Positions 8,416-29,425 of a DNA stretch of 64,000 nucleotides are shown piece by piece. The notes under the pieces were generated by a model. The model saw only the letters and a list, made by a program, of their open reading frames with translations, did no database searches and had not been told where the DNA came from. Both the position numbers and the translations under genes were made by a program. How positions within the stretch are numbered: position 1 is the stretch's first letter; each line of letters opens with the position of its first letter. Source of the stretch: a gamma proteobacterium HTCC2207 (lineage in GTDB: Bacteria > Pseudomonadota > Gammaproteobacteria > Pseudomonadales > Porticoccaceae). Location: positions 124,001 through 188,000 of the forward strand of contig CAJJDA010000004.1 in NCBI GenBank assembly GCA_905182855.1. The letters are read 5' to 3'.

Positions 8416-8514
8416 CTCTCGTGCACTGGAAATGGATTAAAAATCTTTGAGGGGAGCGCGGGGAGTACTAATTTAAAAAAATTTCTATCCAGATAAGGCG
8501 GCCATTCTAAGATA

Positions 8515-8997
8515 TCACTTAGTAACGTAGACCACGCCATCAATTTCATATTCCACATCGCCGCTCGGCGCTTTTACCACAACAATGTCACCAATCTCCT
8601 TGCTGATCATGGCGCGGGCAATAGGTGACTGGTAAGAAATCTTGCCTTCTTTAACGCTGGCTTCATCGTCACCCACGATACGGTAGGTTACCTTGGTGTC
8701 GGTATCTAGATTAATCATGGTCACGGTGGACCCGAAGATTACGCGGTCACCCTGGGGAATTTTTGAGATGTCGACTACCTGTGAGTGAGACAGTTTGCTT
8801 TGGATGGCCTGGATGCGGCCTTCGGCGAAACTTTGCTGTTCACGGGCGGCGTGATACTCGGCATTTTCTTTTAGGTCGCCGTGCTCGCGAGCGGTGGCGA
8901 TGGATTCGATAATACCGGGACGCACGACTTTAATCAGATGATCTAATTCTGTCCGCAGGGCGGCTTCGCCCTCTACTGTCATTACGTCTTTTTGCAT
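8515..8997 (-). CDS. greA: Transcription elongation factor GreA
   Basis: A 160-aa protein, normal GreA length. The N-terminal antiparallel coiled coil (about 1-78) carries the tip acidic pair in [16 protein letters not shown] that enters the RNA polymerase secondary channel and stimulates cleavage of backtracked RNA; the C-terminal domain has the FKBP-like GRIQ...YRIVGDDEA and [14 protein letters not shown] pattern. The start ATG overlaps the carB stop by one base (TAATG), so greA is the last gene of the carA-carB-greA unit. Confidence 0.97.
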
Positions 8998-11900
8998 TAG
9001 CTAATTTCCTTATGCAGCGACTGTAGGCTGCGCACTTTTATATTATTGCCAGTCCTATTGGCAAACACTAGGGCTTCACATACCGCGCTACCGCCGGCCA
9101 TGGTGGTAGTGTAATACACTCGATGCTGTTCAGCATTGGAGCGAATCGTTGAGGAGTCAGCGATTGCCTGACGGCCCTCTGTAGTATTAATAATTAAAGT
9201 GATTTTGTCACTCTTAATCATATCGACTATATGAGGCCGACCCTCTTTAACCTTATTGACAAGCTGAACCTCAATACCTGCATCGGCAATAGTCTTCGCC
9301 GTCCCCTTGGTAGCAATCAACGTGAAACCGAGATCGCTTAGCTTGGTCGCGAGTGCTGGAATCTGATCTTTGTCGCGCTCTCGAACACTGATAAAGGCAG
9401 TACCATTGGACGGAATTTCATCGCTCGCGCCCAGTTCTGCTTTGCCATACGCCTCACCAAAGGTCTCACCCACGCCCATTACTTCACCGGTAGATTTCAT
9501 CTCTGGCCCAAGAATCGGATCAATACCCGGAAATTTATTAAACGGAAACACCGCCTCTTTAACACTGAAATAAGGTGGAATAATTTCTTTGGTGAAGTTC
9601 TGTGACTTGAGAGTCTGACCTACCATACAACGAGCTGCCACCTTTGCCAGCGAGGCTCCAATACACTTAGACACAAAGGGCACAGTGCGCGAGGCGCGAG
9701 GATTAACCTCGATCACATAGATCTTTCCGTCTTGCAGAGCCAGCTGCACGTTCATTAGACCACGCACTCCCAGCTCGACCGCCATCTTGCGACACACTTC
9801 ACGCATATCATTCTGCGTCTCGTCGCTAAGGCTGTAAGGTGGTAGTGAACAGGCTGAATCGCCGGAGTGAATGCCCGCTTGCTCGATATGCTGCATAATC
9901 GCGCCAATAACCACCTGTTCGCCGTCACAGACCGCGTCTACATCCATCTCAATGGCATTGGGCCACCAGAACCGATGGCAATAAGGCCGTGTTCTGGCTC
10001 TATTACATCGCCAGTACCGCTGATAATAAGAGAGGCTTCCTCATTAGCAACCACCAACATGGCCTCTAGTCTGCGTAAAGCACGATCACTGCGCCATTCT
10101 TTGGCGAGTTCTACAGCAGACCTTACAAGCTGGCCATGGTGTTTGCGTAACGCCCAACCCTTCAATCATCTGCTGGAATCGTTCGCGATCTTCGGCGCGA
10201 TCAATCGCATCAGGCGAGGTGCCAATAATATTGACGCCGGCCGCCTCTAAATCTTCCGCTAACTTCAAAGGTGTCTGGCCACCGAACTGCACAATCACGC
10301 CTTTCGGTTGTTCAATATCGACGATCGAAAGTACATCTTCCAAGGTCAGAGGCTCAAAGTAGAGTCGATCAGACGTATCGTAATCGGTTGAAACAGTCTC
10401 TGGGTTGCAGTTCACCATGATCGTCTCATAGCCGTCTTCACGCATCGCCAACGCGGCGTGGACACAGCAATAATCAAACTCGATACCCTGCCCGATGCGG
10501 TTGGGACCGCCACCAAGGACTAGGATCTTGTCTTTATCACTGGGCTGGGCCTCACATTCCTCTTCATAGGTAGAGTACATGTAGGCCGTTTCAGTCGAAA
10601 ACTCTGCTGCACAAGTATCCACTCGCTTATACACAGGGTGCATATCAAAACTGTAACGATGCTCGCGTACTTCAGTCTCGGAGCATCCTAAAATGTCGGC
10701 CAGACGATTATCAGCAAACCCTTTACGCTTTAGGCTATAGAGCCATTTCTCATCAAGGTCGACTAGCGCTTTACCATTTAGACCATTCTCTTCAATGATC
10801 AAGTCCTCGATTTGCACCAAAAACCAAGGATCTATCTTAGTAATACCAAATATTTCATCGACGCTCATGCCCTGGCGGAAGCCATCGGCGACATACCAAA
10901 TACGATCTGGGCCCGCCACTGCAAGCTGTTGCCTCAATACTGCCGCAGCGTTTTCGTCGTCTAGATCGAGTATAGGGTCAAAGCCGGCCACACCCACCTC
11001 GAGGCCGCGCAATGCCTTTTGCATAGACTCTTGAAACGTACGGCCAATTGCCATGACTTCGCCCACAGATTTCATCTGTGTGGTTAAACTCTGTCTGCCT
11101 GGTCAAATTTCTCGAAGGCAAAACGTGGGATCTTGGTTACTACATAATCGATGCTCGGCTCAAATGAAGCCGGGGTAGCACCGCCAGTGATTTCATTTTG
11201 CAATTCGTCGAGGGTGTAGCCTACTGCCAACTTCGCGGCTATGCGTGCAATGGGGAAACCGGTGGCTTTTGAAGCTAGGGCGGATGAACGGGATACTCTG
11301 GGGTTCATCTCGATCACAATCAGTCGACCGTCATCTGGATTAACCGCAAACTGTACGTTGGAGCCGCCGGTTTCTACACCGATCTCTCGCAATACCTTGA
11401 TCGAGGCATTACGCATGATTTGGTATTCTTTGTCGGTGAGGGTTTGCGCTGGAGCAACAGTGATTGAATCACCAGTGTGAATGCCCATGGGATCGAGGTT
11501 TTCGATGGCGCAGACAATAATGCAGTTGTCTTTGCGGTCGCGAACCACTTCCATTTCAAACTCTTTCCAGCCGATCAGAGATTCGTCGATCAACAGTTCA
11601 TTGGTTGGTGAAAGATCGAGGCCACGACGGCAGATGGTTTCAAATTCTTCACGATTGTAGGCAATACCACCACCAGAACCACCCATGGTGAAGGAGGGAC
11701 GAATAACGCAGGGGAAGCCAAAACGGTCTGAGACCTGAATGGCTTCTTCTAAGCTGTGTGCTATGCCGGAATTTGGGGTATCCAAATCAATCGCTTTCAT
11801 GGCTCTATCAAAGCGCTCGCGATCTTCGGCTTTGTCAATGGCGTCGGCGTTGGCGCCGATCATCTCTACGCCGAACTCGTCTAGAACGCCTTGCTTAGCT

Positions 11901-12205
11901 AGGTCCAGTGCGCAGTTCAGTGCAGTCTGGCCACCCATAGTGGGCAGCAAGGCATCGGGGCGTTCCTGTTCGATAATCCGCGCTACGGTGCACCATTCGA
12001 CTGGCTCAATGTAGGTCGCGTCGGCCATAGCCGGATCGGTCATAATTGTTGCTGGATTGGAATTAACTAGAATTACTCTAAAGCCTTCTTCTCGAAGTGC
12101 CTTACAGGCCTGGGCTCCGGAGTAGTCAAACTCACAGGCCTGACCAATAATAATAGGCCCTGCACCCAGTATGAGTATGCTTTTTATGTCAGTTCTTTTT
12201 GGCAT
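8997..12205 (-). CDS. carB: Carbamoyl-phosphate synthase large chain, broken and chimeric
   Basis: Makes carbamoyl phosphate from bicarbonate, ammonia (from CarA) and two ATP, for pyrimidines and arginine. Both halves are recognisable: N-terminal ATP-grasp ([49 protein letters not shown]), oligomerisation region, second synthetase half ([38 protein letters not shown]) and the allosteric MGS-like end. Two defects are seen. At 11086-11088 a frameshift separates FEKFDQADR from [15 protein letters not shown] (one T short). Between about 9960 and 10142 the expected VVRPSYVLGGRAM region (about 68 codons) is missing and replaced by 61 codons' worth of hslV DNA. As written it could not make an active enzyme. 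Confidence 0.9.
9960..10144 (-). other. hslV: Internal fragment of hslV embedded in carB
   Basis: In a frame different from carB this block reads [20 protein letters not shown], then [18 protein letters not shown], then [12 protein letters not shown] and [10 protein letters not shown], which is the middle of the HslV (ClpQ) protease subunit. The flanks are cleanly car[13 protein letters not shown] before and [15 protein letters not shown] after. Both ends of hslV are absent. Short shared strings (CAAAC at one junction, CCAATGCC-like at the other) suggest microhomology joining or an amplification/assembly chimera rather than a functional gene. Confidence 0.85.
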
Positions 12206-29156: not shown

Positions 29157-29301
29157 CCTCGATACGCGCCGGACCACGACGCTAATTTTGATAGTGAGAA
29201 GACTTCATCCTTGAGAAGCGATACTTTCTTCTACTTAGTAATGCAAGCATAGACAATAACCAATGAATGCACACTACTTTTTGGTGTCAATTTATTAAAA
29301 T

Positions 29302-29378
<77 letters not shown>

Positions 29379-29425
29379 CCGACACAACGGTTTAATCAAT
29401 CAAACCGCCTCCTAAGAGGACGCGC

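Follow-up and report, generated by a model that had tools for sequence, protein, structure and literature searches.

In the natural illegitimate replacement after DNA uptake known as SPDIR, reportedly described in Harms et al. 2016, a short host stretch gives way to foreign DNA of unrelated sequence, and the two match over very few bases at each joint. Contig chimeras, on the other hand, usually switch between sources at long shared sequence. Here we examine a 64,000-nucleotide stretch from a gamma proteobacterium HTCC2207 (positions 124001-188000 of contig C4 of the draft genome G000; hereafter the window), in which carB, the gene for the carbamoyl-phosphate synthase large subunit, holds a fragment of hslV. 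The locus is like SPDIR in its short, unrelated exchange, but unlike it in that a further foreign carB tract adjoins and in being known from assembled sequence. It is also like the interspecies chimeric metagenome contigs treated in parts of one study (PMC7881036), with tracts of other species in one contig of a draft rich in small indels, but differs from them in the shortness of the hslV piece (183 bp), which is entered and left at 1-2 common bases. We consider it probable (about 0.85) that the hslV piece and the neighbouring foreign tract are an assembly or library chimera.

A foreign hslV fragment in carB

As assembled, one CarB profile is covered in successive parts by three minus-strand open reading frames (ORFs; 11084-12205, 10086-11075 and 8997-9947), and the ORFs flanking the fragment reach profile position 686 and resume at 754, so that 67 positions (687-753) are absent. 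The original prediction, that the middle of HslV stands in place of part of the second ATP-grasp domain, is borne out: HslV profile positions 71-134 (NF003964) are matched by a 75-aa minus-strand ORF at 9938-10165 (E 3.9e-30, 104.8 bits; the whole-protein cut-off is 137 bits, and a score below it is expected for a fragment), an ORF to which Pfam assigned no family. The hslV of genome G226 matches at 183/183 nucleotides, starting at window position 10144 and ending at 9962, with divergence from the first outside base on both sides, and the limits of the fragment are now set accordingly. Identity of this extent with such abrupt ends excludes chance, and near-full identity to another organism with abrupt ends is what is expected of a chimera. 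The features of the locus are as follows.

8997..12205, minus strand: carB, broken and composite as assembled, from consecutive CarB profile matches
10861..12205, minus strand: 5' part of carB, host-like, 88% identical to the congener G021 (158 mismatches/1344)
11085..11097, minus strand: 1-bp deletion near 11090, shifting the carB frame and separate from the insert, from base-level comparison with four congeners
10435..10860, minus strand: G070-like carB tract, 98.4% identical (419/426; 7 mismatches) in fine nucleotide comparison
10145..10434, minus strand: carB tract with a best match of 81%, its limits being those of the neighbouring tracts
9962..10144, minus strand: 183-bp hslV fragment, 100% identical to G226 hslV, replacing 204 bp of carB, from profile and nucleotide identity
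8997..9961, minus strand: 3' part of carB, of the host genus and continuing the original frame, from sequence comparison

The carB flanks lie 481 bp apart in the window. Among the 29 relatives whose retrieved loci include both flanks, the spacing is 502 bp in 28 and 544 bp in the remaining one, L130, and it is also 502 bp in 4/4 additional congeners; the arrangement of the window was thus not seen in the relatives compared. The two spacings indicate that 204 bp of carB were exchanged for 183 bp, in agreement with the replacement of about 68 codons predicted at the outset. Also as predicted, the hslV sequence lies in a frame other than that of carB, and we can add that carB keeps one frame on either side of the insert, the net change being -21 bp, and that the insert puts a stop codon into that frame. 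When the possibility of a functional CarB-HslV fusion was tested, no open frame ran through both joints. Given this stop, the partial loss of the second ATP-grasp domain and the separate frameshift, the enzyme would be unable to work as written, as had been anticipated, and neither a fusion enzyme nor any biological function should be inferred from the arrangement. Nor is there a sign of a long-dead gene, since pN/pS against four congeners is low both in the carB pieces (0.013-0.152) and in carA (0.097-0.142), values to be read knowing that several dS values were saturated and that nusA, which has no stop-free frame in the interval, was omitted for all four relatives. The suggestion that a second or intact carB might lie elsewhere found no support: a query with the 316-aa C-part detected none in the draft, which is 76% complete (1.64 Mb in 14 contigs).

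Source of the fragment

The perfect match to G226 was found among 116 genomes of the family that holds L022, an uncultured Oceanospirillaceae metagenome-assembled genome that is the closest protein match among named genomes (92%; 86.5% DNA identity), and the next best of the 116, G214, reaches 95%. The closest match among 112 genomes of the host family, the window excepted, is 75%. G226 itself carries intact hslV and hslU around the matching stretch. It belongs to a family other than that of the host, as the genome sets of the two family searches do not overlap and the C-part of the window CarB is 67% identical to G226 versus 84-88% for the 20 congeners whose listed matches span the full length. 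More of the donor's hslVU neighbourhood was not found in G000, in which a 4183-bp L022 query matched only the genome's own hslVU (66%) and the insert; a 26-base pattern from the upstream joint had 0 matches in viral contigs, a result of little weight.

A resident source had also to be considered, because G000 has an hslV of its own, intact on contig C8 as a 181-aa ORF. The original prediction was right that an intact hslV exists elsewhere in the genome, but this copy is not the source, and the identical intact gene sits in another species, G226. Given that the resident copy shares 70% identity with the insert over 158 bp, versus 100% for G226, gene conversion from it was rejected, and there is next to no chance that the fragment is a duplication or conversion of the genome's own hslV. 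Beside this intact hslV, hslU (L002 1807-3157) is split into two ORFs by a frame change, which fits an indel-rich draft.

The bases possibly common to carB and hslV number 1-2 on either side, A or AA at the upstream joint and C or GC at the downstream one, as judged from the carB of relatives, the original carB bases being lost. The short shared strings predicted there are therefore present at this length, but in our comparison they do not appear to be clearly above chance. A clean exchange of 204 bp for 183 bp of wholly foreign DNA, fully identical to another bacterium and with so little in common at each joint, is what natural replacement by SPDIR would leave behind, and SPDIR is named in sections of PMC7192050 as an outcome of transformation with relaxed identity needs. 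The same sections, however, present it as supposedly insignificant in natural populations. Here, the gene struck would be one essential for biosynthesis, and the change would also have had to become the consensus sequence, with a tract from a second donor adjoining and 1-bp indels throughout the draft; the joint matches are not clearly beyond chance. We regard natural replacement as unlikely. Among the three mechanisms put forward originally, then, conversion from the resident hslV falls away, microhomology of 1-2 bp is not decisive, and a chimera is the best reading.

A second foreign tract adjoining the insert

Sliding identities across greA-carB-carA dip at 9,900-10,900, which resembles each congener less than the surrounding sequence does. 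A family search with the query 10146-10960 led to G070, a congener, at 88%, and the fine comparison resolved the tract listed above, with switch points near 10847-10861 upstream and within 10435-10490 downstream, both in aligned carB sequence. Outside this tract, G070 carB differs from the window by 23-27% (mismatches 311/1344 in 10862-12205, 80/290 in 10145-10434 and 255/953 in 8997-9961). The affected stretch therefore holds DNA of more than one source organism, the G070-like tract and the G226 piece, and this additional tract, of another species and adjacent to the insert, makes the foreign part longer than originally noted and strengthens the chimera reading. Near-identical blocks were sought via exact matches of at least 40 bases; an identity-filtered megablast listed the hslV piece alone, overlooking the G070 tract because the alignments there extended into less similar sequence.

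Natural recombination can also yield homologous tracts such as this one, and congeners can recombine, so that the G070-like tract might be a natural import and the hslV piece alone an artefact, or the reverse. A second G070-identical stretch, 189 bp at 29197-29385 over tRNA-Met and spacer, speaks for such a mixed case. Along the 27-kb G070 contig aligned with the window, however, no other long protein-coding block reaches the identity of the carB tract, and chance would have to account for this tract lying so close to the hslV piece; we hold the mixed case to be very improbable. The 189-bp stretch covers tRNA-Met (29302-29378) and the adjoining spacer, and Rfam reports only the tRNA there. In the six other relatives compared over the spacer (29190-29301), the matches are partial in length at 79.7-86.5%, reduced to 19 bases, or absent. 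The identity may reflect a conserved element, local recombination or another patch.

Between the two foreign tracts, 10145-10434 is of less certain origin. The best congener matches at centres 10200, 10290 and 10380 are 71, 74 and 80%, and in a control among 20 congeners, from which pairs at 93% or above were excluded, the lowest best-matches were 79, 80 and 82%, above the window values. The closest sequences overall are G282 and G485 (81%), from another family of the order. The donor search was confined to the host's order, and no match above 81% was found in 390 genomes drawn from it or in 22 genomes of the genus of G282; nor was a donor found in the 112 family genomes, where the tract was tested within a longer query. 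It may come from a third donor, or from carB of the host or another donor at a point where that gene has diverged, and this is the weakest of our claims. Taken together, about 900 bp of carB (roughly 9962-10860) appear to be pieced together from two or three donors and set in otherwise ordinary host carB. Such a mosaic might conceivably be natural, a carB stretch rewritten in one lineage by DNA from at least two neighbours through both homologous and illegitimate (1-2 bp) events, but we think this quite unlikely. If true, SPDIR would here have been captured in a wild bacterium, one that could no longer produce carbamoyl phosphate for itself.

State of the draft

In 184 kb of C4, 21 of 141 genes align in more than one piece against the genes of relatives, two of the 21 being antisense matches; dapB, frameshifted within a single alignment, is not among them. 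All three sites that were examined base by base (carB, dapB and rng) proved to be 1-bp indels. Frame changes, those of dapB and rng included, lie at about 1954, 2560, 7215, 8225, 13860, 19745, 38800 and 62678 of the window, in genes that we take from their translations to be NUDIX, peroxiredoxin, argD, argF, dapB, recN, ftsH and rng. Frame changes across the window fit a poorly corrected draft. As for the gene neighbourhood, argF (plus strand) and greA (minus strand) converge across 8458-8515, with carB immediately upstream of greA on its strand; the carB-greA order also occurs in L144 of G226, with a GreA-like ORF.

Origin of the patchwork

We favour an assembly or library chimera because one essential gene of an indel-rich draft carries, in a span of 900 bp, near-identical tracts of two species, while the relatives' carB is ordinary. 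The patchwork would have arisen during library preparation or metagenome assembly. Host reads may have been thin or missing at the carB site, carB reads of other community members would then have been drawn into the consensus via conserved carB sequence, and the hslV piece would have been brought by one chimeric molecule or a wrong gap fill. The carB-internal switches fit a mixing of reads from related carB genes, and k-mer overlap fits the hslV jump at 1-2 bp less well than a chimeric molecule or wrong fill does.

Several points weigh against a chimera. The hslV joints are common over only 1-2 bp, so that k-mer overlap alone is no explanation of that jump. Of 33 low-identity stretches in the 184 kb of C4, the insert alone is non-homologous; the other 32 (32/32 inspected) come down to frameshifts, to variable linkers or the ends of genes, or to genes of weak conservation. 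In the 122.7 kb of host sequence that relatives cover, a screen blind to homologous tracts like that of G070 turned up no second such patch, and a defect of this kind would therefore be infrequent. Over 20 kb, G226 is free of frameshifts (15/15 aligned genes in one piece), unlike G000. Moreover, G000, G070 and G226 need not share a sample, and the chimera has been judged from the assembled sequence.

It is worth emphasizing that species-representing draft genomes can hold short, exactly foreign patches in essential genes, and that such patches are open to misreading as gene loss, fusion or transfer. If the arrangement were confirmed by reads, on the other hand, carB would offer a rare natural case of foreign DNA in place of a short unrelated stretch.
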